Part shown: positions 1,556-64,000 of the stretch, piece after piece
Layout of the letters: every line of letters begins with the position of its first letter
Position numbering within the stretch: position 1 is the first letter of the stretch
Source: Planctomycetota bacterium
GTDB taxonomy: Bacteria; Planctomycetota; PLA2
Length of the DNA stretch: 64,000 nt
Assembly: GCA_021776785.1 (NCBI GenBank)
Contig: JAJFFF010000043.1
Coordinates: 68,196 to 132,195 of the forward strand
Direction of reading: 5' to 3'
Notes under the pieces: model-generated
Told to the model about the DNA's origin: nothing
Database searches by the model: none
The model's input: only the letters and a program-made list of their open reading frames with translations
Position numbers and translations under genes: made by a program

Positions 1556-4425
1556 GACGTGAACTCCGCGATCGCTTCGCGAAACGCGCGCGCGGCGATA
1601 TCGCGGTGGTATTGATACTCCTCGTCGAAACTCGCTTCGGCTGTCATCAAAGGACCTGCGCGATAGCCGAGACGGCGCGCGAGTGCACGTCGCGCGTCCG
1701 GATCTTCCGGCAGTTTTTCCGCTGACAGGTCCTGACCCAAACGCAGTTTGCTCTCCATCGTGAGGAGAAAACGATACGAAAATTGCAGGTCGGCCACACG
1801 CTGCGGGTCGATGGCGCCTAGCTCCTGCAGCAGCGTGAGGCGGTGCGCGACGTGGCCGTCGCGAAAGCGCGGTTCGTCTTTCCCAAGCGACAACGCATAC
1901 ATCTGCGTCACAAATTCGATGTCCACGAGTCCGCCCGCCTGCGCCCGCTTGATCGACGTGGGGCCCCCTTTCGCGGCGATCTTGGCGCGCATCTCCTCCA
2001 TCTCGCGCGCGTGCTCGGGCGTGAAGCCAGGCTCAAAGATCGCCCTGGCAATTCTCTCCTCGACCTCTTCGGACAGCGTCGGCGAACCGGCCACGGCGCG
2101 AGCCCGCGAGTACGCCATGCGTTCCCACGTCTGCCCCATGCCAAGGCGGAAGTAGTTTTCAAACTCGGCGGGTGTCGTGACAAGCGGGCCGCCCTTGCCG
2201 CCGGGACGCAGCCGCAAGTCGATGTCGTACAACAAGCCGTATTCGTTGGGTGTGTCGAGAAGTTTGGTGAATCGGCGCGCGACGCGCGTGTCTTTTTCCT
2301 TCGCGCGCACGTCGCGAGCGAAGTACACGAGGTCGAGATCGGAGCCGTACGTAAGTTCGCCGGTCCCCAGCTTGCCAAGCGCCAAAATCACGAGCTCGGT
2401 GTCGGGGTTGCGCGCTCGTTCGTAGGCGAGGCGCACAATGACCTGGGCCAGACGCGTCAAGTCCTCACCGGTTTCGACGATGTCTTGCTTGCCGCGTACG
2501 TCGCGCAGTCCGATGCGCAGCATCTCAAGGTTTCTGTAGTCCGAGAGAATGCGGGCCGGATCGACGGCGCTCGGAATCATGTCCGTGGGAATGTCCTCGA
2601 AGCTGGCGAGGCCGTCTTGGTCATCTTCGGTGGCGAGAGCGTCCACGAGTTGGTCGAGCGTGCCCGGCGCCCGTTCGAGGATACGGCACAAGAAGCGGCT
2701 GTGCCCCGCCAGGTCGATGAGCATCTTGAGCAGACGCGGGTCGGCATCGATGGCCTGGTAGAGCGTGGCGCGCGCGCCGACGCGTGACGTGATCCGCTCG
2801 AATCGCCGCAGGGCCGCGTCGGGGTCCGGCGTGCGCGCGAGTGCGTCCAAGAGTGCGGGAAACACGCTCGCGAGAAACTGGCGCGTGCGGGGCGAACCCG
2901 CAAGCCACTTCGACTGCTCTTTGGTCAGCTCCTCGATCAAGAACGTGGCCCGATTGATGTCGCGTAACCCGTGTTCCTCGTACACGCGGGCCAGCGCCGC
3001 CAGGTCGGTCGTCTCGCTGAGCAAGAGGTTCGTCTCGTTGGCCTGCGCGACGCTGCGTTCGGTGAAAATTTTTCGAAATAGTCGATTGAAGATGCCGCGC
3101 ACCGCATCCGCGCGTTCGCGGTAGGCCGACATGAATTCGTCGGACGTTTCAAACCGGCAGCGCCGCGCGAGCGCGGTCAACTCCTTGGGGTCATCGGGCA
3201 TGCGGTGCGACTGAGCGTGCCGGACGAGCATGATGCGATGCTCGACGACGCGAAGGAATCGATACGCGTCGTCCAAGATGTCGCGCTCCTCGGGAAGGAT
3301 CGCTTTTGTTCCTTCGAGGAGCCGCAGCGCCGTGAGCGAGTTGTGGTGGCGCACTTCCGGCACACGCGAGCCGTGCAGCAACTGGAGAAACTGAATCACG
3401 TACTCGACGTCGCGAATGCCGCCGTAGCCCTGTTTGACCTCGGTGTGCTCCTCGCCACGCGTTTCCGTAATCGACTCCATGCGTTGCTTCAGCCGTTTGA
3501 TCGCCGAAATTTCTTCGTACGAGAGTCCGCGGCCGTAGGCCCAGTCCTTCACCGCCTGGACAAAGGACTCGCCCAAGCGGCGATCGCCGGCGATGACGCG
3601 CGCCTTGAGATGCGCTTGCCGTTCCCACGTCTCGCCCATCTGTTGGTAGTACTTGATGCTGGAGGCAAGCGTGCGCGCGAGCGATCCGACCGCGCCCTCC
3701 GGCCGCAACCGCAGATCGACGCGATAAAGCCGACCGCGTTCGGTTACCGCGTTCGCCTCGCGCGTCACGCGCTCCGTCAAGCGGTGAAAAAACTCACGGT
3801 TGGAAATCGAACGCCGGTTCTCGCCACCGTCGGTGTCGCCATCGTTGTCGTAGAGAAAGATCAGGTCGATGTCGCTGGAGTAGTTAAGTTCAGCGCCACC
3901 GAGCTTGCCCATCGCGATGACGGCAATGGCGCTGGGTTCAGATCCGTGCCACGGGCGTCCGTACTTCTGGGACAACTTCGCGTGCACTTCCGCCAAAAGG
4001 CGCTGCATCAAGATATCGGCCAAGTCCGAGATACGCCGCGTCACGACCGTGATGTCGGACTGCGCAACGACGTCTTGCCACGCGATCCGCAAGGTCTCTT
4101 CGACGCGCACTTGGCGCAGGTGGTCGATGCGCGCGGCCATGGACGGCAGCCGCGCGAGGTCCTCGTCGAGCGTCGACTCAAACAGCTGTCGTTGGTACAC
4201 GCCGTCGTCGCGCGGGATGTCGCGTGCGAGCGCGGGACGCGCGATGACGGTGTCGACCCCGGCGGGCGACGCGTCGATGAGACACAACCAGCCGGCGAGA
4301 TGCGGCTCAATGTCGGCGCCCGCTTCGAGCAACCGTTGCGTGGCGATACGCACAGCCGCCGGGTCCGCGGCGCGTTCGAGCACCGCAACGGCGTCGGCGC
4401 GGCGCAGCAGTTCGTCTGCGTTCAC
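1552..4425 (-). CDS. glnE: bifunctional [glutamine synthetase] adenylyltransferase/deadenylyltransferase
   Basis: Two nucleotidyltransferase modules (GKLGGAELNYSSDIDLIF; GKLGTGELTYGSDLDLVY); likely GTG start at 4425 overlapping the upstream gene. Confidence 0.95.
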   Translation of the reverse strand: MNADELLRRADAVAVLERAADPAAVRIATQRLLEAGADIEPHLAGWLCLIDASPAGVDTVIARPALARDIPRDDGVYQRQLFESTLDEDLARLPSMAARIDHLRQVRVEETLRIAWQDVVAQSDITVVTRRISDLADILMQRLLAEVHAKLSQKYGRPWHGSEPSAIAVIAMGKLGGAELNYSSDIDLIFLYDNDGDTDGGENRRSISNREFFHRLTERVTREANAVTERGRLYRVDLRLRPEGAVGSLARTLASSIKYYQQMGETWERQAHLKARVIAGDRRLGESFVQAVKDWAYGRGLSYEEISAIKRLKQRMESITETRGEEHTEVKQGYGGIRDVEYVIQFLQLLHGSRVPEVRHHNSLTALRLLEGTKAILPEERDILDDAYRFLRVVEHRIMLVRHAQSHRMPDDPKELTALARRCRFETSDEFMSAYRERADAVRGIFNRLFRKIFTERSVAQANETNLLLSETTDLAALARVYEEHGLRDINRATFLIEELTKEQSKWLAGSPRTRQFLASVFPALLDALARTPDPDAALRRFERITSRVGARATLYQAIDADPRLLKMLIDLAGHSRFLCRILERAPGTLDQLVDALATEDDQDGLASFEDIPTDMIPSAVDPARILSDYRNLEMLRIGLRDVRGKQDIVETGEDLTRLAQVIVRLAYERARNPDTELVILALGKLGTGELTYGSDLDLVYFARDVRAKEKDTRVARRFTKLLDTPNEYGLLYDIDLRLRPGGKGGPLVTTPAEFENYFRLGMGQTWERMAYSRARAVAGSPTLSEEVEERIARAIFEPGFTPEHAREMEEMRAKIAAKGGPTSIKRAQAGGLVDIEFVTQMYALSLGKDEPRFRDGHVAHRLTLLQELGAIDPQRVADLQFSYRFLLTMESKLRLGQDLSAEKLPEDPDARRALARRLGYRAGPLMTAEASFDEEYQYHRDIAARAFREAIAEFTS

Positions 4426-5402
4426 GCGGACTCCCCAACACAGCGCAGCGCGGCGGCTTCGACAGGGTTCACGGCAAGCTCCGTCATACAAATCGGCGCG
4501 GGGCAGACGCGCAACGTGCAGGGACTGCACCGCACGCCGTTGCGCACGGTAACCACATGGGCGCCGCGCGGCGCGTGCACGGCGGGGTCCTTGGGCCCAA
4601 ACAACACAACGGTCGGAACGCCCGTCGCGGCCGCCAAGTGCGCCGGACCCGTGTCGCCGGCCACAACCAGGCGCGCGCCTGCCAGCACTTCGACGAGCGC
4701 GGTGAGGTCGGGCGGCGACACGATGCGCGCGGGCTGAGACATGGCGGCAACGACCTCTTCGACCTGCGTCTGCTCGCCCGGTCCGGCAGTGAGCCAGATG
4801 GGGGCGCTTAGCCGTGTCGCCAGCCGATCAGCTAGTTCCGCGAATCGCTTCGATGGCCACCGTTTGAACGCACCGAACGCGCTGGTCCCGCTGTGCAAAA
4901 CGACCGCGCCGTGATGGGGCGCGTCGGCCGCCAGTTGCGCCAGCGTGTGTGGCCCATCGTCAAACACGTGGTTCACGAGCGCTAAGTATGCATCCAGGCG
5001 GTGCGGCGTATCCGGCGGCGCAACGCGTTCGCGCACCAATAAGTGGTTGCCCTCGCGCGACAACGCGCCCCCCAGCCCCACTTTTCGCTTCGCGCCGCAA
5101 AGTGCCGTCAGCACGCCCGACTTCATGTTTCCTTGAAGATCGAGCGCCACGTCGTAGCGCTCACGGCGCACCGATCGCAAAAAGATCGGGAGCCGCCACC
5201 AATTCCACGGAAACCGGAGCCCCTTTCGTGCGTATATGTGAATGGAGTCCAGTTCGACCAGGCCACGGAGAAGGGGTGCAAACCGATCCTCAACCAGCCA
5301 GCCGATTTGGGCCGAGGGGAAGCGCGCGCGCAGCGTCGTCAAAACGTGGAGGCTTAAGGCCACGTCGCCAAGCGCGGAGAGGCGGACGATCAGAATGCGC
5401 AA
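4422..5402 (-). CDS. glycosyltransferase family 9 (heptosyltransferase-like)
   Basis: MRILIVRLSALGDVALSLHVLTTLRARFP N-terminus and AGDTGPAHLAAATGVPTVVLFGPKDPAVHAPRG motif. Confidence 0.93.
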   Translation of the reverse strand: MRILIVRLSALGDVALSLHVLTTLRARFPSAQIGWLVEDRFAPLLRGLVELDSIHIYARKGLRFPWNWWRLPIFLRSVRRERYDVALDLQGNMKSGVLTALCGAKRKVGLGGALSREGNHLLVRERVAPPDTPHRLDAYLALVNHVFDDGPHTLAQLAADAPHHGAVVLHSGTSAFGAFKRWPSKRFAELADRLATRLSAPIWLTAGPGEQTQVEEVVAAMSQPARIVSPPDLTALVEVLAGARLVVAGDTGPAHLAAATGVPTVVLFGPKDPAVHAPRGAHVVTVRNGVRCSPCTLRVCPAPICMTELAVNPVEAAALRCVGESA

Positions 5403-5437
5403 TGCAAGCTCAATGAGGACATTACGATAGGCACGCC

Positions 5438-6625
5438 ATGAACGGAATCCGACTTCTGATCGCCACGCTGGTCCTCGCGCCCCTTGTTTTAGGAAAAGGG
5501 TCCGAGGCCACCCCCGGGAAAGGCGCGCCCCCGAAGGTCAAGCAAGCCCTAAACAAGGCGTTTAAGGGCAAGATCGTCAAGATCAAGAAGAAGCGCGTCA
5601 CGATCTATTACGACTTCGAGGATCCCGATCAGCTCTTGGATTTTGAGGATGCGCGGCCGCCGCGGCTCCTCGACGCGACGCAAAACAAGGCGTTCATCCA
5701 AGGCGGCCGGCTCGTGCTCGAAGGCTCCACGTCGATTCGCCACAAGCTGGAAGGCACAGAGGAGCTCCGCGCGAAGTTTTATGTGCGGGTCGGGCAGCAA
5801 CACAACGTGGGAACGGTGTTCACGGAATCCGTGCTCAGCGACTTCTATATCGTCCTAAACCTTTTTGACCAAAGATTTTACAAGAACGGCAACATGCTCC
5901 TCGCCGGTTGCGGCCTGCACGAGGACGAGGGCGCGCAGGACCTGTCTTCGGGCAAGGTCAACTGGCGCGATATCTTCTCGAGCAACCTCAAAAAGAAGGT
6001 CAAAGTCGGCCAGCCGGTCGAGGTCGAAGTCGCCAAACACGGGCACAAGGAATACGCCCGCGTGGCCGATGTCGAAGGCAAGGGGTCTTCCAAGGGCAAA
6101 ACCAAGCCCATGAAGGCCTACAAGTTCGGCTTGTGGGTGCATGGCTCGCGCGCGACGTTTGATGATCTGACGATCACGTTCCAGCTCACGGACGAGTTCT
6201 TGGACTTTCACGACCTCAAGGCCGCGATCGCCGATGACTGGGAAGATGTCGCGACCTCAGGCCCGTTGGCAGGGGTCAAGGGCGTACCGCCCCGGATTCG
6301 CACCCACATCGAGCAGTACGCCGAAGGGGGCGGAGAGGCCAAAAACATCGTGCCGGTGCTGATGCGAACGGGCCTGTCCAAGAAATGCCGCAAGATCGCC
6401 GCCGACATCTTGGCTCAGCGGGCCGATCCCAAGGCGATCCCGCTTGTGATCGATGCGCTCTACTCCAAGGACAAGGAGGCGCGCAGACTCGCGATCTTTG
6501 TCGTTAAGTCCATTGTGGGTAAAGACTTCGGGTATCGGCCCACCGGCAGCGACAAAAAGCGCTCCGAGGCCATGCAAAAGCTCAACGCCCATCTAAAACA
6601 GTATCGCAGCCGGTATTACGGGTAA
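5438..6625 (+). CDS. exported protein with beta-sandwich-like N-terminal part and C-terminal HEAT-like repeats
   Basis: Signal peptide; C-terminal ADILAQRADPKAIPLVIDALYSKDKEARRLAIFVV is HEAT-like. Confidence 0.6.
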   Translation: MNGIRLLIATLVLAPLVLGKGSEATPGKGAPPKVKQALNKAFKGKIVKIKKKRVTIYYDFEDPDQLLDFEDARPPRLLDATQNKAFIQGGRLVLEGSTSIRHKLEGTEELRAKFYVRVGQQHNVGTVFTESVLSDFYIVLNLFDQRFYKNGNMLLAGCGLHEDEGAQDLSSGKVNWRDIFSSNLKKKVKVGQPVEVEVAKHGHKEYARVADVEGKGSSKGKTKPMKAYKFGLWVHGSRATFDDLTITFQLTDEFLDFHDLKAAIADDWEDVATSGPLAGVKGVPPRIRTHIEQYAEGGGEAKNIVPVLMRTGLSKKCRKIAADILAQRADPKAIPLVIDALYSKDKEARRLAIFVVKSIVGKDFGYRPTGSDKKRSEAMQKLNAHLKQYRSRYYG

Positions 6626-54886: not shown

Positions 54887-54974
54887 TGCCAGGGTGGCGG
54901 AGTGGTCAAACGCACCAGACTGTAAATCTGGCGGAGTAATCCTACGGGAGTTCGAGTCTCTCTCCTGGCAACCA
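54887..54974 (+). tRNA. tRNA-Tyr (anticodon GTA), CCA encoded
   Basis: Acceptor TGCCAGG/CCTGGCA, anticodon arm CCAGA-CTGTAAA-TCTGG, long class II variable arm, T-arm GGGAGTTCGAGTCTCTC, then A-CCA. Confidence 0.93.
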
Positions 54975-54978
54975 AGCA

Positions 54979-55015
54979 AAACCCGCGCGAGAGGCGACTT
55001 TCGCGCGGGTTTCTT
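54979..55015 (+). terminator. Rho-independent terminator of tRNA-Tyr
   Basis: AAACCCGCGCGA/TCGCGCGGGTTT 12-bp stem followed by TTTCTTTG. Confidence 0.75.
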
Positions 55016-55286: not shown

Positions 55287-56468
55287 TTACCCGTGCTGAC
55301 GGTGGGCGCGCGTGGCGCACGCCTCGGACACGCCGCTGGGTCCCAGCAACTCAACGGCGCCGCGCAGGTCGTGCAATTCGAGCCGTGTGTACACGTTCGC
55401 GGTCAAGACCGGCGTCGAGTGACGCATGAGCCGCTGTGCCTCTTGGAGGCGTACACCGGCGCGGGCCAACGCGGTTCCAAATGTGACGCGCAGCGCATGG
55501 AAGTCGAGGTACTGACCGTCGCTGTCTTGATACCGCAAGAAGTCGCGGTTGTTCTTGCGCCGCGTGCGCTCCTCGCCATCCGCCTCCTCAACCCAAGCGT
55601 CGTGGGCGGTCGCGAGGTCGCTCCGGAGCGTGTCCACGCCGGGCACGGCGGCGAAGACGGGCGCAGTGCGTTCTACGTCCCCGCGCGTTGCCAGCACGGT
55701 CGACAGGGCAGCCGCGGCGTCAAGCGCGAGCGGTAAGACTGCCTCGCGACGATTCTTGGCGACACTCGCCCGCACCCGGAAGGTCGGAGCCTCGTTGTCG
55801 AGGACGAGATCGTTCCAAGTCATCTTGGCGAGTTCGCCGCGGCGAAGACCCGTGCGGAGTGCCACAAGGTAGACGAGTGCGCGCGCCGCTGGCGCGGCCG
55901 CGAGAAGTCTCGACTCTTCGTCAGGCGACAGCGCGCGTCGTTGGCGCGCAGGCTCGGCCGTGCTCGACGTGGCAATGCGATCCGCGGGGTTGTGCCCCCA
56001 ACGCCCTTCGCGGATCAGCCACGTAAAAAACGTCCGTACCGCGCTCCGATAGAGGTTCCTCGTTCGGGGGCTTGCCTCACCGTCCTTGAGGCGGTTCAAC
56101 GCACGCCGGAGATATTGAGGCGTGCAGGCACCGAGGTCCTTGAGGTCACCGAGGATCGTCGTGAGTTGCGCCGCGGTTTCGCGTACGTAGCGTACGCACC
56201 GTCCCCGGCGCTCAAGGTCGTGGCGGTACTCCTCGATGAGGCCCGCGATCCGAGTCACACGTGTACGCCGATGCGTTTCGACACCGGCTGCGCGGAGCTC
56301 CTCGTCACGTACAAGCTCGCGCGCTTTCAACTCGGCGGCCCGCTTGTCGCGCAAACCTGTCGTCTGGTCGAAAAGGACACCGTTCACCGAGAATTGGATC
56401 CGCCAAGTCTTGGCGCAGAAGGGGAGGCCGGTCTTCCGATCCTTGTACATTTTTCGGTAGATCCTCAC
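55287..56468 (-). CDS. tyrosine recombinase/phage integrase
   Basis: TGLRRGELAKMTWNDL, FHALRVTFGTALARAG, RLMRHSTPVLTANVYTRL catalytic R/HxxR/H/Y boxes. Confidence 0.95.
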   Translation of the reverse strand: MRIYRKMYKDRKTGLPFCAKTWRIQFSVNGVLFDQTTGLRDKRAAELKARELVRDEELRAAGVETHRRTRVTRIAGLIEEYRHDLERRGRCVRYVRETAAQLTTILGDLKDLGACTPQYLRRALNRLKDGEASPRTRNLYRSAVRTFFTWLIREGRWGHNPADRIATSSTAEPARQRRALSPDEESRLLAAAPAARALVYLVALRTGLRRGELAKMTWNDLVLDNEAPTFRVRASVAKNRREAVLPLALDAAAALSTVLATRGDVERTAPVFAAVPGVDTLRSDLATAHDAWVEEADGEERTRRKNNRDFLRYQDSDGQYLDFHALRVTFGTALARAGVRLQEAQRLMRHSTPVLTANVYTRLELHDLRGAVELLGPSGVSEACATRAHRQHG

Positions 56469-56682: not shown

Positions 56683-56865
56683 TCACGGCGTCCCCCGGCG
56701 CTCTTCGATGAACTTCTGAAGATCGTCAGGGTGGATGCGAACGGCCCGCGCGCCGACGCGGATTACAGGCAGGGCGCGTTGGGCGATGAGCGTTCGGACG
56801 CTACGCTCGGAGAGCGCCAACACTCCGGCGACCCGTGCCACGGTGAGGAGGTCGGGGGCTACCAC
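56683..56865 (-). CDS. AlpA/excisionase-family helix-turn-helix protein
   Basis: LLTVARVAGVLALSERSVRTLIAQRALPVIRVGARAVRIHPDDLQKFIEE. Confidence 0.85.
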   Translation of the reverse strand: MVAPDLLTVARVAGVLALSERSVRTLIAQRALPVIRVGARAVRIHPDDLQKFIEERRGTP

Positions 56866-57113
56866 CGAAGGGCCTCGTCATTCGACTGGGGCGCATAGTC
56901 CAGAAGCAGTTGGTCATCCACCGGCTGCTCGTCGATTGGAGTCCGCAGCCATGCGCAAATCGCATCGCGGTTCTCCTCGATATGCCGCCGGACCTCGTCC
57001 GAGAGCAGTGACTTGTCGCCATTGAATTCGATCCGGTTTCCGTCGAGTGCGCGGAGATGTGCGCCGCGACCGGGAGCCTTTGCGAGGTTGGCGATGAATT
57101 CGGCGACTCTCAC
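56859..57113 (-). CDS. TubC N-terminal docking-domain-like small protein
   Basis: GTG start at 57113 overlaps primase stop (GTGA) with AGGAGGT SD; IEFNGDKSLLSDEVRRHIEENRDAICAWLR resembles TubC-like domain. Confidence 0.55.
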   Translation of the reverse strand: MRVAEFIANLAKAPGRGAHLRALDGNRIEFNGDKSLLSDEVRRHIEENRDAICAWLRTPIDEQPVDDQLLLDYAPQSNDEALRW

Positions 57114-59710
57114 AGCACCTCCTGGTGAGGAGTGTCGTCGTCGGTCGACTTCGATTTGCTGTCCAAAGAATCCAAAGAACGACCGGGAGCCGAGTTCTTT
57201 GGATTTTGTGTACACACTTTCGGGTTGAGTGCCCACTTTGATCGTTCGCTGGGGTGGCGCCCGCTGCTCCCTTTTCGCTCGACGGTGATGGAGCGGATGT
57301 AGCCGCGTTGTCTCAGTTCATCTAGCCCCTCGTCCATGTGCTTTGTCTCGTCTCCAAAGGAGCGGCGTCTGGACTCATACAGGTCGGCCCGAAGGAACGT
57401 GGCCGGATAGTCGTGCCTTGAGAGCCAATCGAGAATGACACGGGCGTGCTTCACTGCACTCGAACCGGAAAACAGGCCCATCGCGTGGAGGTAGTGCGGC
57501 GCAGCGTAGCGCGAAATGTCGATCGCCGCCGCCATCACTTCTGGTCCAATGGGCTGCTTCCACGGCTCGCTTTGGCCGACGAGGCGCGTGAAGTGCAAGA
57601 GCGCCGCGGTACGGACGGCGCGGCCCACCGCCTTGTTGGCCCAGTCCACGATTTCGACGAGGTCGCCACCTTCGCGAAGAGCCTTCTCGACTTCATCCTG
57701 GTAGGCCGCCCGCAACTCTAGAGATTCAGAGGAGAGCGAAACTCGGTGCCGAATGTACTCCTTCTGATCGTTTCGCGGACAGGGCAGTTCAGCGAGCGAG
57801 TAGATCAAGTCGTGATACTGCTGGCGCAGTTTCTGCGGAACCGGATCAAGGCCGGAGTGGCGCCACCCCACGAGGGACCGTGGAGCAATCACGTAGCAGC
57901 GTGCGAGCAATCCCCGGCCGCGCATTACTTTGCTCGAACGGAGTGTTTCCAGAAAGACCGGTTGCACACAAGCCGCAAGCGTTAGGCATGGTCTCTTGAT
58001 AGAGTCGGGTCCGCGGGAACCGCGATTGACCCGAATCTCTTCGCCCCCGTACGCCTTGAGCAAATTCTCGATCTTGGCATCCCCACCTTGGTTCGAGTAA
58101 CGAACGGCGTTGGAGATAATCGTCCCTTCATCGGAGAACGCCGCCATCGATCCGCCGCGCTCGTCGAGTAGTGTCGCAACGTTTTCCGCCGTCACGTTGT
58201 CGCAAAGGACTGTCGGGTCAACGGGCACTTTCGCCCATAGTGCCGCAAGCTCGTATTCGAGCTCCTCGAGTTCACGCATCGCTTTGGCGGCTTTTTCGAC
58301 GTTGTCGCCAGCCGCCCTGGTCTGAGTCTTCTTGATTCGCTCAAGACAGACCTCCACGTTGCGCAGCGCAATACGGCGCGGAACCGAGAGCTCTTTGATC
58401 TGTTGCTGCTCCCAGAGGCGTAGTGGGTGCGATGCATGCTCGAAGATCGGTGATTTGCGCTCGCCGGTAGCCGCGACGATCAACACGTAAAGATTGGCTT
58501 GCTCTGTGTAGCTGTCGCAAACAAAGACCTCGACTTTGGATCCGATCGCAGCCGAGATGGCAGCTAAGACCATCATCGCGGGAAGGTCGACCGGCACCTG
58601 CACAGACCTTGTTTCGGCCTCGACGTATTCACGAAGCCCCGCTACCTCAAGCGCGTGGAGCGGAAACTCGGGTCGATCGGCTCTGGCGATCCAGAGCACG
58701 TCCGCCCAGTCTTCCTCGGAATTCGCGTACAAAGAATCCACAAAACCCATCGGAGCGTGCGGGGCCCGGTTGACGAGTCGCTTGAATTGATCCGCGTCAT
58801 GGTCGCTGACGTATGCACGTAGATCAGCGTCCGCGGACCCCGCTAGCCAAGTGGCCGGCCATTCGAGGACGCGCACATCCGTTGAGACGTCCGAGAGTGC
58901 GGACACGGCTCCGGCAGCTCCCTCTCTTCCAGCGCTGTCGCCGTCATACGCGATGACCACCCGTCGATCGCGAAAGACTGAAGCGAATTCTGGGGGGAAC
59001 GTCTCGCCGCAGGCGAAGGAAGTACTCAATAGCTCGGGGGCCACCGTCGTCGCAACCAACAGGTCGGAGTCTCCTGCACACAAGAGGCACGTGGTCTTCG
59101 AGGTCGCGGAAGCAAGTAACGCCCCACCCAAGAGCCCGTTCTTTCCGATCGTCCACTTGTGGGTGTCGTGACTTTCGTGCGGTTCGGACCTGCTCGACCT
59201 GCAGGACAGGCCAACGAGCTGCCCGTTCGGATCGAATGCAGGTAGCACGACTCGATTGGGCCCGTACGTGTCTTTGGGGAAGGCACCGCCAGAGAGTCGC
59301 GTTAGAGCCGCATGGCTTGCGCCGATCTCGTCAAGGAGTTCGGTCAGCCACGAATCGCGACGAAGCGCGTGAGCCTGCGCGTCCCTCAGCAGTCGTGCAA
59401 ACCAAGTCGTCTTGGAATTGCGCGCTGGCTCCGAACTCAACCAACGTCTTAGCCAGTCCGCGGCCTCGGCTAGATCGGCCGGTGGCTGGGTGAGCACGAT
59501 GAGGTTCAGCAGTCCCCCTTTGCGTTTGCAGCCAAAGCAATGGAACAAGCCTCGATCCGGGTCGATGGATAGAGACGGTGTGCTGTCGTCGTGAAACGGA
59601 CACATCAGATTCCGCTTCGCGGAGATTTCACCGGCTCGGACACCGAGACAGTGCGCGATAATGTCCGCGACTCTCCCGGCGCCAACGACTTCTTCAACGA
59701 TGTCGCGCAT
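57110..59710 (-). CDS. phage/plasmid primase-helicase: CHC2 zinc finger, Toprim, DUF3987
   Basis: CPFHDDSTPSLSIDPDRGLFHCFGC; VIAYDGDSAGREG; ATGERKSP P-loop variant; DUF3987-like C-terminal half. Confidence 0.92.
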   Translation of the reverse strand: MRDIVEEVVGAGRVADIIAHCLGVRAGEISAKRNLMCPFHDDSTPSLSIDPDRGLFHCFGCKRKGGLLNLIVLTQPPADLAEAADWLRRWLSSEPARNSKTTWFARLLRDAQAHALRRDSWLTELLDEIGASHAALTRLSGGAFPKDTYGPNRVVLPAFDPNGQLVGLSCRSSRSEPHESHDTHKWTIGKNGLLGGALLASATSKTTCLLCAGDSDLLVATTVAPELLSTSFACGETFPPEFASVFRDRRVVIAYDGDSAGREGAAGAVSALSDVSTDVRVLEWPATWLAGSADADLRAYVSDHDADQFKRLVNRAPHAPMGFVDSLYANSEEDWADVLWIARADRPEFPLHALEVAGLREYVEAETRSVQVPVDLPAMMVLAAISAAIGSKVEVFVCDSYTEQANLYVLIVAATGERKSPIFEHASHPLRLWEQQQIKELSVPRRIALRNVEVCLERIKKTQTRAAGDNVEKAAKAMRELEELEYELAALWAKVPVDPTVLCDNVTAENVATLLDERGGSMAAFSDEGTIISNAVRYSNQGGDAKIENLLKAYGGEEIRVNRGSRGPDSIKRPCLTLAACVQPVFLETLRSSKVMRGRGLLARCYVIAPRSLVGWRHSGLDPVPQKLRQQYHDLIYSLAELPCPRNDQKEYIRHRVSLSSESLELRAAYQDEVEKALREGGDLVEIVDWANKAVGRAVRTAALLHFTRLVGQSEPWKQPIGPEVMAAAIDISRYAAPHYLHAMGLFSGSSAVKHARVILDWLSRHDYPATFLRADLYESRRRSFGDETKHMDEGLDELRQRGYIRSITVERKGSSGRHPSERSKWALNPKVCTQNPKNSAPGRSLDSLDSKSKSTDDDTPHQEVL

Positions 59711-59888
59711 GGCGGCCCTCGTTGTCTGCCGTCAGGGCCTGCTCAAGATCGGAGCGCCGAAAACGCCATTGCCCTCCCGGAGTCCTGAATGCACGGACAT
59801 GCCCGGCACGGGCCCACTGCGAGAGGGTTCGTGGCTCCACGCGAAGGAGTCGCGCCGCCTCGAGCAGAGTGAAGAGTAGATCGCTCAT
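59694..59888 (-). CDS. MerR-like helix-turn-helix DNA-binding protein
   Basis: LLEAARLLRVEPRTLSQWARAGHVRAFRTPGGQWRFRRSDLEQAL. Confidence 0.85.
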   Translation of the reverse strand: MSDLLFTLLEAARLLRVEPRTLSQWARAGHVRAFRTPGGQWRFRRSDLEQALTADNEGRHARHR

Positions 59889-59979
59889 GCCCGCCTCTAC
59901 GGGCGAGCAAGCCCCGATCCCACCAGGACTCCCATACGTTCCGCGTTTGGGCGGGCTCTTTCTTCGTTTGTCTTCGGTT

Positions 59980-60720
59980 CTACTTCGGTGCTGGCAAATC
60001 CCGGTCTGGATCGACGCCCCGTGCCCGGGCGACCCATCGAACGGCATCGATACGTAGCCGACCGTTCTGGCTCTTGGCACACCGGTTGTTTGTGTCTCGA
60101 AGCAGCGCGAGTGGGTCGCCAGCAGGCGCTCGCATGATCGCTTTGCGGAGTGTGTCCCCAGACGCGACGATTTCTGCAGGCCCTGACTTGTAGTTGATGA
60201 TCTCCGCGGCGCGCTTGTGGGATATCAGCTGGCCTGCCCACTTGTCCGGCCGCGGACCGGCGTCTGCGGGCGGAGTACTCGCCGTCGGTAGGTCCATGTC
60301 ATCTCGAAGAGTCCGAAGTTCAGCGACAGCGGTTTTGAGGGCTGCTACGCATGCTCCCGAATCGAGATTTTGAAGTCCTATCGTCAGGTGGATCCGCTGT
60401 GCGCAAAGCTTCCCGCCTCGTTGTCCAATCGGAGACCGGTCGTCGGGCTTCAGAATTGCCCATGTGTCGAGCGGCAATCCGAATCGATCAGTCACAAACG
60501 GAAGAACTTTCACCAAGTTATCGAGCTTCGTGTGGAGGTCTTCTATGGGCTTTGCGATGGCCGGGCTGCTGGGGCTAATAGTGGGGCGAATCGGCCCGAG
60601 CCCGAAACCTCTTCGATCATGGACTCGGCTCATCACATCGAGAGCGACCTGAGCGCTCCTAAGAGTGCTGGCGATCGATATTGCGACGGCTTCTTGATCT
60701 ATGGGCTCCCTGGGTTTCAT
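59980..60720 (-). CDS. hypothetical protein of the mobile element
   Basis: ORF from ATG at 60720, no recognised domain. Confidence 0.5.
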   Translation of the reverse strand: MKPREPIDQEAVAISIASTLRSAQVALDVMSRVHDRRGFGLGPIRPTISPSSPAIAKPIEDLHTKLDNLVKVLPFVTDRFGLPLDTWAILKPDDRSPIGQRGGKLCAQRIHLTIGLQNLDSGACVAALKTAVAELRTLRDDMDLPTASTPPADAGPRPDKWAGQLISHKRAAEIINYKSGPAEIVASGDTLRKAIMRAPAGDPLALLRDTNNRCAKSQNGRLRIDAVRWVARARGVDPDRDLPAPK

Positions 60721-60805
60721 GTCTGTCCCAGGATAACGCAGCGGAGCCCACACAGGTTCTAGGTCTGTGCCGTGCGGCAGTCTATGGAGCGGAAAAGGAG
60801 AAGAT

Positions 60806-61246
60806 ATGGCCGCAAAAAAGAAGAAGACCACAGCTCGCAGACGCGCGCCGAAACAACCGGACTACCCGTTCTTAACTTTGAGCGAGTACGGCGCGCTAAG
60901 TCCGCAGGAGAAGATCAAGTACATCGAGGTTCTGAAGTCAGAGCCGTCGAAGCCGAATCCAAACCTGGCGCATCTGTTCAAAGAGTCGCCGAAGTTGATC
61001 GAGCGAGGAATAGAAATCTACCGCGAGCGGTTCGGCGTTCGTAGCGGGCTAACCCCCGTTTCGATGTGGGCGCACATTGGGCTCCTGGTGGTCGGAACCG
61101 CTGCTATGGTCACTCTGGGAGCGTGGGGTGTGCTCGAAGGAGCCGCAATCGTCGGCGTGCTCGGCCCGCTCTACACGTACGTGCTCGTAAACCTCCGATA
61201 CTTGACTGGCTGGAAGATGGTCGGCGACTCCGGCAGTGAGACATGA
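60806..61246 (+). CDS. small membrane protein with basic N-terminus (cassette gene 1)
   Basis: SD GGAG before ATG 60806; MAAKKKKTTARRRAP N-terminus; two hydrophobic segments near C-terminus. Confidence 0.75.
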   Translation: MAAKKKKTTARRRAPKQPDYPFLTLSEYGALSPQEKIKYIEVLKSEPSKPNPNLAHLFKESPKLIERGIEIYRERFGVRSGLTPVSMWAHIGLLVVGTAAMVTLGAWGVLEGAAIVGVLGPLYTYVLVNLRYLTGWKMVGDSGSET

Positions 61247-62073
61247 ACGACGCCAAACTCGAAAAGGTTCGCGCGTGGCTAGAGAAGTCCGGATACCCCC
61301 TCGAGCTAGAGATTGCCCGCCAAGTGGAGGCTATCGAACTCGCTTGGACGCAGTCTTGGCACTACCTCGACGAAGACACGCAGAAGTATCGCGAGACTGA
61401 CGTCATCGCCTGGAAAGAAATTCTCCTCCGGACGGATCGGGATCCGGTTCTGGTCCGCCTTTCACTCTGCATCGAGTGCAAGAGAAGCGACGCCTCGTGG
61501 GTGGCGTTTACGTCGAAGCGAACAAGCCCCGGAGATTTGTTTGAAGTGTTCGCGACCCCGGCGTCGGAGTATGGCACCAAAGTCCTCAAGCGTATCGCGC
61601 CGTTTCTACTTGAGTCGCCCGCGTTTCAACGAGACGACCCGGTAGCGTATTCCGTGACGACAGCACACTTGGGCAAAAAGGGCCAGCCACGAAACGAACG
61701 CGACTCGGCATACGGAGCCATCCGTGGAGTCTCCGATGGATCAATCGCGCGCGCGCGAGCCGCTGACGGGGCCGGGATGACTGTCGCCGAAATCGTAGTC
61801 CCACTCATTGTGTTTGACGGAGACCTGCTCGCGGCAACACTCCAAGACTCGGGAGAGATTTCACTCGATCCCGTTGACGAGATCCTGGTGGTCCAAAGAA
61901 GGCCCACCGAACAGCGTCCATTCACGATCGTTCGGATCGTTACCGCCGCGAGAGTCACGAACTACCTAGAGCGGTTCCTCAAATCAACGACAGTGTTAGA
62001 CATCCATAAGGATGCTATTCGGTTGGCAATCGAGAACCACCGAAAGAACAGCGGCCCTGTGGTCGTTCTTTGA
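61243..62073 (+). CDS. PD-(D/E)xK restriction-endonuclease-like protein (cassette gene 2)
   Basis: ATGA overlap with gene 1; LEKSGYPLELEIARQV...YRETDVIAWKEI...LSLCIECKRSDASWVAF fits E...D...ExK nuclease core. Confidence 0.7.
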   Translation: MNDAKLEKVRAWLEKSGYPLELEIARQVEAIELAWTQSWHYLDEDTQKYRETDVIAWKEILLRTDRDPVLVRLSLCIECKRSDASWVAFTSKRTSPGDLFEVFATPASEYGTKVLKRIAPFLLESPAFQRDDPVAYSVTTAHLGKKGQPRNERDSAYGAIRGVSDGSIARARAADGAGMTVAEIVVPLIVFDGDLLAATLQDSGEISLDPVDEILVVQRRPTEQRPFTIVRIVTAARVTNYLERFLKSTTVLDIHKDAIRLAIENHRKNSGPVVVL

Positions 62074-62074
62074 C

Positions 62075-63640
62075 CTAGGTCCAGTCCATATGCCGCGGCA
62101 CCATGTCCTCAAACGGATCTCCATCCGGGAGTAGCCCACGAAGCATCTCCTGCTCGTGACTGGGTCGCGAAGCGGACGCGCCACGTAAGGATCGCCACCC
62201 GCTGCCTCGGATTTGAGCGTAAGCGCCCGCTAACGCATCGAGCAGGTCGTCGTGCGCCGCTGCGGGAAACGACAACGCCTCCGCGCGAAGCTCGGGGAAT
62301 TGATCGCCGCAAATTCGTAGGAGCGAGGGCTTCGTTGAGAGCGCAGGCTCCAACGCTTGGACGATGCGCAGTTCCTTATTCGTCGTGGGCTTGATGGGCT
62401 TGACCGAGATTGATGCGTGGCGCTTGCGTAGTTCGCGCTGCGTGACTTCAACGAGGGCCTCGTCACGAACCGCCTCTTGCCATACTACGCGGACTTCGGC
62501 TTCGATAGCTTTGCGTGCAATGAACGCAGCCTGTTCGGAGGGTGCTCCGCGCATGCGCTGAGCGAGAAAGACCTCCCAGCATCGCTCCGACGTGAGGTAG
62601 CCGATGGCGACCACCGCACACCAGTCCGTCTGACCGGTACGGGCGCGAGTTGAATCGCCAGCGGGATCTGCAAACAGCACCCGTTGGGAGTACGCAGAAA
62701 CACCTTGCGGAACGGGTGCATCAAAGTGCCATGTTTCAAACGGGCACTCTTCGCCGGACACGGGACGGTTCGCAAGACCACGTGCCGCAGCGGTCGGGCC
62801 CATCTGGTTGGCGCGTTCACGTAGTACGTCTTGGGGGAACGGACACGGCAACGTGCCGCTGTCGATGCACTCGCCACATGCCCACTTTTCCCACGCCAAG
62901 ACGTCGTACGGTTCCTCCGCGCGAACAATGAGCCATCGCCAACCGCTCGTCTTCTCTTCGCGCAACACCGCGGAAGCATCGGCGCAGTGATACGCCGTTT
63001 GCAACCAGCACGTACGACGCTTTCCGTCGCCCTTGAGTTGCTGACGAGACATCCAAGTCGTGCGCAACGCTTCGAGCACGCGCATGCGATTCGTGGGTTC
63101 GAGAATCGCCGTCTTCAGCGTTACGATGTCGTCGAGCAGCAAGAAGTTCGTGCGCACACCCGTGCCCGTCAAGATGCCGTGACCGCTGACGGTGGGGTTG
63201 TTCGTCATGCCTGTCCGGGCGACAGTGAACCGATCCGCGGTGTCGCGCTTCATCTGCACGCGAACACCTGGGAACACTCGTTGATACGCGGGCAAGTCAA
63301 GAATGCCGCGGACGAGCGCGACGAGTTCGCTGGAACGATCGGCGGAGTACGAGACGATCGACACGAGCAGGTTGGCGTCACGTCCAATCTCAAACGCCGC
63401 GCGGTAGCAAGCGAGCGTCGTTTTGCCGCTGCCCATCGGCAGCATGAGCCCGCACGGTGTACTGGACTCGAAGCACTCTTCAGCAAACGACCAGACAAAG
63501 CGATCGAGTTCGCGTCGCTTGAACGCGGAGCCTTGTTCGTCCAAACCGACGTAGACCAGGAACGCGCCAAAGTCTCTGCGTGCGGCATCGGCGGCCATCG
63601 CGTGTGCCTTGAGCAGCAGGTTGCTAGTCACGGCCGTCAC
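62075..63640 (-). CDS. phage terminase large subunit
   Basis: LMPMGSGKTTLACYRAAFE Walker A, NFLLLDDI Walker B, VLFADPAGDST and AHDDLLDALAGAYAQI nuclease motifs; GTG start near 63631/63640. Confidence 0.87.
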   Translation of the reverse strand: MTAVTSNLLLKAHAMAADAARRDFGAFLVYVGLDEQGSAFKRRELDRFVWSFAEECFESSTPCGLMLPMGSGKTTLACYRAAFEIGRDANLLVSIVSYSADRSSELVALVRGILDLPAYQRVFPGVRVQMKRDTADRFTVARTGMTNNPTVSGHGILTGTGVRTNFLLLDDIVTLKTAILEPTNRMRVLEALRTTWMSRQQLKGDGKRRTCWLQTAYHCADASAVLREEKTSGWRWLIVRAEEPYDVLAWEKWACGECIDSGTLPCPFPQDVLRERANQMGPTAAARGLANRPVSGEECPFETWHFDAPVPQGVSAYSQRVLFADPAGDSTRARTGQTDWCAVVAIGYLTSERCWEVFLAQRMRGAPSEQAAFIARKAIEAEVRVVWQEAVRDEALVEVTQRELRKRHASISVKPIKPTTNKELRIVQALEPALSTKPSLLRICGDQFPELRAEALSFPAAAHDDLLDALAGAYAQIRGSGWRSLRGASASRPSHEQEMLRGLLPDGDPFEDMVPRHMDWT

Positions 63641-64000
63641 CAACTGCCAGCGGCATGCCGTCCAAAGCCTCCCGAATGATCGACGCACGTTCGGCGGGGT
63701 CCATCGCTGGCAATGCGATCCGGACAAGTCTCACGATCTCGTCGCGGCCCTGCGGTGAGTCGGGAGCGGGTAGCTCTAGATGCGCGTGGATGTGTTCGTG
63801 GCGCTCCGGGCTTAACTTCCCGAGTAGCTTGGCCATCAAACCGCATGCGCGCGCTCTTGCGCCTGGGTTGCTGCGGTCTTGGATGAGTTCACGCAAAGCG
63901 CGCAGCGTCATCTGCCATAAACCTTCATCGTCAACTGAGTGGAGGTCGCGCAGTTCGTTGATCGCGGCTTGGATGTTCTTCCGGCGCTTCCAACGCGAAG
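63624..64000 (-). CDS. probable terminase small subunit-like protein, truncated by window end
   Basis: Frame remains open upstream of the listed ATG to base 64000 (..RWKRRKNIQAAINELRDLHSVDDEGLWQMTLRAL..); position immediately upstream of TerL. Confidence 0.5.
   Translation of the reverse strand, partial: SRWKRRKNIQAAINELRDLHSVDDEGLWQMTLRALRELIQDRSNPGARARACGLMAKLLGKLSPERHEHIHAHLELPAPDSPQGRDEIVRLVRIALPAMDPAERASIIREALDGMPLAVGDGRD

Follow-up and report, generated by a model that had tools for sequence, protein, structure and literature searches.

A predicted PD-(D/E)XK-like nuclease from an unnamed mobile family as candidate anti-phage cargo in a tRNA-Tyr-linked element of a Planctomycetota bacterium

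A stretch of 64,000 nucleotides (the window) from a Planctomycetota bacterium (assembly GCA_021776785.1, contig JAJFFF010000043.1) was analysed, in which an element linked to a tRNA-Tyr gene was found. The tRNA-Tyr (54887-54974, plus strand), the probable attachment site, is directly followed by a strong GC-rich inverted repeat and a T-rich stretch (54977-55014), which are probably the terminator of the tRNA. The genes of the element then appear on the minus strand, comprising a tyrosine integrase (55287-56468), a small HTH_17 protein that may be excisionase-like (56683-56865), a primase-helicase with a CHC2 zinc finger and DUF3987 (57110-59710), an HTH_17/MerR-like protein (59694-60080), the open reading frame ORF283 (59980-60831, with its true start probably downstream of 60831), the terminase large subunit TerL (phrog_38; 62075-63727) and a TerS-like open reading frame still open at the window end (63624-63998). 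The latter had no match in the family libraries and was assigned from its position and from its 71% identity to the frame adjoining TerL in a sister element (locus L059).

Between the replication module and the terminase lie two genes on the plus strand, opposite to all of the element genes listed above, and both this siting and the two reading frames, which the original prediction had proposed as a defence or exclusion cassette, were confirmed from the ORF map. Gene 1 (60806-61246), divergent from ORF283 and starting with an ATG at 60806, encodes a protein of 146 aa with a basic N-terminus and two predicted membrane segments according to a Kyte-Doolittle scan (about residues 85-103 and 109-127; 61058-61186). 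It is preceded by its own Shine-Dalgarno sequence (AAGGAG, 60796-60801), and its stop overlaps the start of gene 2 by ATGA (61243-61246). Gene 2 (61243-62073) encodes a protein of 276 aa and is convergent with TerL, its stop at 62073 being one base short of the end of the terL frame (62075). Moreover, gene 1 is probably real, as judged from the Shine-Dalgarno sequence, the ATGA coupling and a codon-position GC with the pattern of a coding frame, rather than from any relative as proof.

The element is an integrated phage or a phage satellite. It shares with phage satellites an integrase at a tRNA, a primase/helicase, terminase genes and a cargo slot, and the contig of the sister element carries no recognised structural gene; however, the contig of the window runs only 23 bases further, ending after the TerS-like frame with the far side of the element outside the sequence, and a complete prophage is also compatible. 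The Pfam models of portal and capsid had no match in the whole genome, a finding of little weight, given that the assembly is 93% complete and that some phages fall outside these families. Furthermore, a second attachment site was searched for elsewhere in the genome and was not found.

The sister element, found in a genome of the same family, presents an integrase, a DUF3987 primase, an HTH-like frame, another frame, TerL and a TerS-like frame, with TerL as well 71% identical to its counterpart in the window. Neither gene 1 nor gene 2 is present there; instead, a different frame of 363 aa lies between the replication genes and TerL, and the DNA similarity between both elements breaks off near the 3′ end of terL. 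Since a different gene occupies this place, the space between replication and terminase genes is a variable cargo slot, as judged from this one sister element, in line with the cargo position first proposed. P2 phages and P4 satellites are described as having hotspots of variable cargo between conserved genes (PMC9122126, PMC9519451); the likeness lies in cargo that is small, varies and is flanked by conserved genes of the element, and in a gene 2 relative found near a portal gene (L036). In contrast to those hotspots, the window element is not P2-like, its slot runs from the replication genes to TerL, and the defence role of its cargo is a prediction.

As for the 363-aa slot gene itself (L059:11750-12841, minus strand), it had no Pfam or PHROG match and contains an INRHGIVHG motif (RHGIVH) resembling the catalytic motifs of HEPN ribonucleases, being possibly another cargo effector. 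Beyond the integrase of the same element, an Mrr_cat restriction endonuclease (2994-3839, plus strand) and a Schlafen AlbA_2 gene (4450-5835, plus strand) were observed, which are possible further defence cargo.

To establish the affiliation of gene 2, several libraries were searched, and none of Pfam, NCBIfam, PHROGs and PADLOC gave a significant family match; in particular, neither of the two genes nor any of nine relatives of gene 2 matched a PADLOC-DB 2.0.0 family at E≤1. Among PDB sequences no relative appeared, with a single match at chance level, and close-relative scans of viral contigs, phages and GTDB contigs with gene 2 alone found nothing. The relatives were recovered by whole-genome, profile and plasmid searches. 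A profile of 16 relatives from which gene 2 had been left out recovered it at E=3.5e−25, the best shuffled or reversed decoy reaching about 0.04. Two subfamilies were joined by hhalign (probability 98.9, E=1.9e−17), and the same link was obtained from reciprocal profile searches with shuffled decoys. Thus, by sequence comparison, gene 2 belongs to a real, unnamed protein family, of which 17 members were recovered across several phyla, in phages, on plasmids and on chromosomes, plus one in an E. coli mobilizable island. The family is new to the four libraries searched, while defence nucleases carried in hotspots of mobile elements are already a known kind. A literature search by accessions and locus tags, with defence lists reaching to 2023, returned no paper naming the relatives.

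The alignment of the 17 members showed D43, R50, D53, C79 and K80 to be invariant, E21 to be altered in one member and D192, in the C-terminal domain, to be kept in most of them. E78 is present in the window protein and replaced by Ser in the subfamily of Priestia, Enterobacter and phages. The E...D...ExK arrangement that had suggested a nuclease is therefore in place (E21, D53 and E78-C-K80). An earlier AlphaFold model made with 3 sequences had a pLDDT of 59, and the fold search on it was uninformative. The final model, built from ten sequences with the relatives from whole-genome searches and plasmid records left out, reached a pLDDT of 72 and a pTM of 0.75, and predicted an alpha-beta-beta-beta core (residues 19-91; 61297-61515) formed by a helix at 19-30 (E21) and strands at 34-43 (D43), 48-62 (D53), 69-80 (E78 and K80) and 86-91, which is the order of PD-(D/E)XK enzymes, and D53 and E78xK80 occupy the corresponding positions. 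A low-confidence stretch (residues 93-130) lies between the core and a beta-rich C-terminal domain (residues 180-247; 61780-61983), possibly a specificity or sensor domain.

In the Foldseek search against the PDB, the best match had a non-significant E of 0.05, and R2 retrotransposon endonucleases, AF1548 and MspJI were at the top of the list; UL24, exonuclease and restriction proteins recurred in the viral list, also with no significant match. A PD-(D/E)XK fold is thus probable for gene 2, as the invariant residues, the predicted topology and weak fold matches led by such nucleases point in the direction of the original prediction. In its model, gene 2 follows the helix and strand order of the alpha-beta-beta-beta-alpha-beta core of this superfamily, though with no significant fold match. 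It shares with the superfamily a conserved acid followed by (D/E)xK on adjacent strands, D53 and K80 being kept in all 17 members, and differs from it in having no significant Pfam match, in the invariant R50 and C79, and in the Ser at position 78 of one subfamily. Likewise, it resembles the type IV restriction enzymes of the MspJI and Mrr kinds in presenting a predicted restriction-like core with no methylase adjacent, but has no sequence homology to them.

The family was sporadic in the same phylum, being found in 8 of 399 genomes (that of the window included), and further relatives appeared in Tritonobacter and Moraxellaceae MAGs, on IMG/VR phage contigs and on plasmids of four genera (Priestia, Arthrobacter, Enterobacter and Leptospira, the last one truncated). 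Several copies were lower in GC than their surroundings. A total of 14 out of 5,426 complete E. coli genomes had a relative, and a mobilizable element was present in all four neighbourhoods examined; in these examples the element sits at a tRNA-Asn and encodes a MobQ relaxase, the relative comes second after the integrase, and a gene of 530 aa, CoiA-like by eye, lies about 40 bases upstream of the relative. The island with integrase, 530-aa gene and nuclease relative (L062:10357-13089, plus strand) constitutes a candidate pair. In the Leptospira weilii plasmids, the truncated relative (L016:6004-6486) stands beside MazEF, HNH and RelE genes, and a further stretch of homology follows beyond its annotated end, which could reflect a frameshift.

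In phages, the copies adjoined genes for the portal, integrase, terminase or tail, and most of them ran antisense to the late genes. One relative was near a portal (L036; phrog_68, E=1e−150) with a HicB-like frame, seen by eye, in between; two were antisense to tail genes (L035 and L037, the latter near a RES/HEPN protein), and others were near TerL (L032), about 30 bases after an integrase (L033) or directly after TerL (L031/L011). The contig of the last one (G096:C49, 23,493 bases), assigned to a bacterial genome, matches a viral contig of IMG/VR in length and carries an identical nuclease gene, and is apparently a phage that was binned with its host. On chromosomes, the neighbours of relatives included an ABC-3C set matching PDC-M68AB, an NYN gene with a PDC-M34B gene, an OLD/GajA-like gene and a RiboL-PSP HEPN gene. 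Relatives of gene 2 are thus typically cargo, with phage genes or predicted defence genes alongside, while their link to predicted defence genes, seen in the loci listed here, is no more than suggestive. In one locus (L006:8558-10066, plus strand), a gene of 502 aa with no Pfam or PADLOC match lies downstream of genes for NYN and HEPN_Swt1 proteins; it shares 4 bases with the end of the nuclease relative and is a possible operon partner.

Regarding gene 1, no relatives were found in 300 genomes of the phylum, viral contigs, plasmids or phages, and no comparable membrane gene was found upstream of the gene 2 relatives. A frame with two transmembrane segments near one relative (L012) was considered as a conserved membrane partner and rejected, as 88 bp separate it from that relative and it lacks the codon-position GC expected of coding sequence. 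The two-gene system of the original prediction found no support in this co-occurrence search: with gene 1 an orphan and no similar partner beside the gene 2 relatives, a conserved two-gene unit is unsupported and the recurring entity is gene 2. Among everything searched, sequence similarity leaves the membrane-protein partner unique to the window locus, and gene 1 is probably an accessory acquired locally and translated together with gene 2, whose product it may tether to the membrane.

On the whole, we consider it fairly likely that the product of gene 2 is a PD-(D/E)XK-like nuclease which the element carries as variable-slot cargo, most likely with an anti-phage role. Of the defence candidate first proposed, the lack of a match to known-defence models stands, and the role is plausible from the contexts of the relatives, while the anti-phage function is still something that we infer. 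The nuclease would cleave the DNA of competing phages, protecting the host and hence the resident element. No methylase was detected by Pfam among the scanned frames of the visible part of the element, up to the contig end, in contrast to type II restriction-modification, where a cognate methyltransferase would accompany the nuclease. Therefore, gene 2 most likely discriminates by DNA modification or structure, or acts when triggered. As a first option, its C-terminal domain would recognise a feature of foreign DNA (e.g. modified DNA); as a second one, the nuclease would be triggered on infection and kill the cell. No trigger or self-protection mechanism was visible in the data. A functional selection in E. 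coli found anti-phage systems with restriction-fold-like components (PMC9519451), which gene 2 resembles in being a mobile-element gene with restriction-fold similarity and, as is usual among them, no methylase, and from which it differs in that neither gene 2 nor nine relatives match PADLOC-DB 2.0.0.

Element housekeeping, an addiction pair, homing and exclusion by gene 1 fit the data less well than an anti-phage nuclease. The nuclease could serve the element itself, in packaging, replication, recombination or the hijacking of a helper phage, which we regard as unlikely. In some phages, packaging is aided by nucleases encoded beside the terminase, and gene 2 adjoins TerL both in the window and in L011; however, it lies on the strand opposite to the other genes of the element, the sister element with a TerL so similar has no gene 2, and many relatives are on plasmids or chromosomes lacking phage genes.

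Somewhat more doubtful is a toxin-antitoxin pair that stabilises the element, with gene 2 as toxin and gene 1 as antidote or membrane anchor: the tight overlap of both genes and the toxin-antitoxin genes near some relatives would agree with it, but the relatives have no conserved small partner and gene 1 is an orphan. It is about equally doubtful that the pair works as a membrane-bound unit, gene 1 anchoring gene 2 at the inner membrane to sense or meet incoming phage DNA, with other members using other partners to this end, such as the 530-aa gene of E. coli that looks CoiA-like.

A free-standing homing or selfish endonuclease spreading itself between mobile elements appears still less probable, since neither a shared insertion site nor a conserved gene split by the copies was found and the neighbours vary by locus, despite a family that is sporadic, mostly without a conserved partner and often poorer in GC than the flanking DNA. 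Finally, it is very improbable that gene 1 excludes superinfecting phages at the membrane and that gene 2 is incidental, as the two hydrophobic segments in a temperate element are opposed by a gene 1 with no relative of any kind and a gene 2 that alone recurs in phages and islands, and no evidence of such a role was found.

The anti-phage reading of gene 2 can be tested with standard coliphages, since the family has an E. coli member (WP_023155921.1). Gene 2 and its relatives make up a family of predicted nucleases, outside the searched libraries, that moves among phages, plasmids and mobilizable islands across phyla, and the locus draws attention to the interval from replication to terminase genes as a site for cargo in phage or satellite elements from a group that has been little studied.
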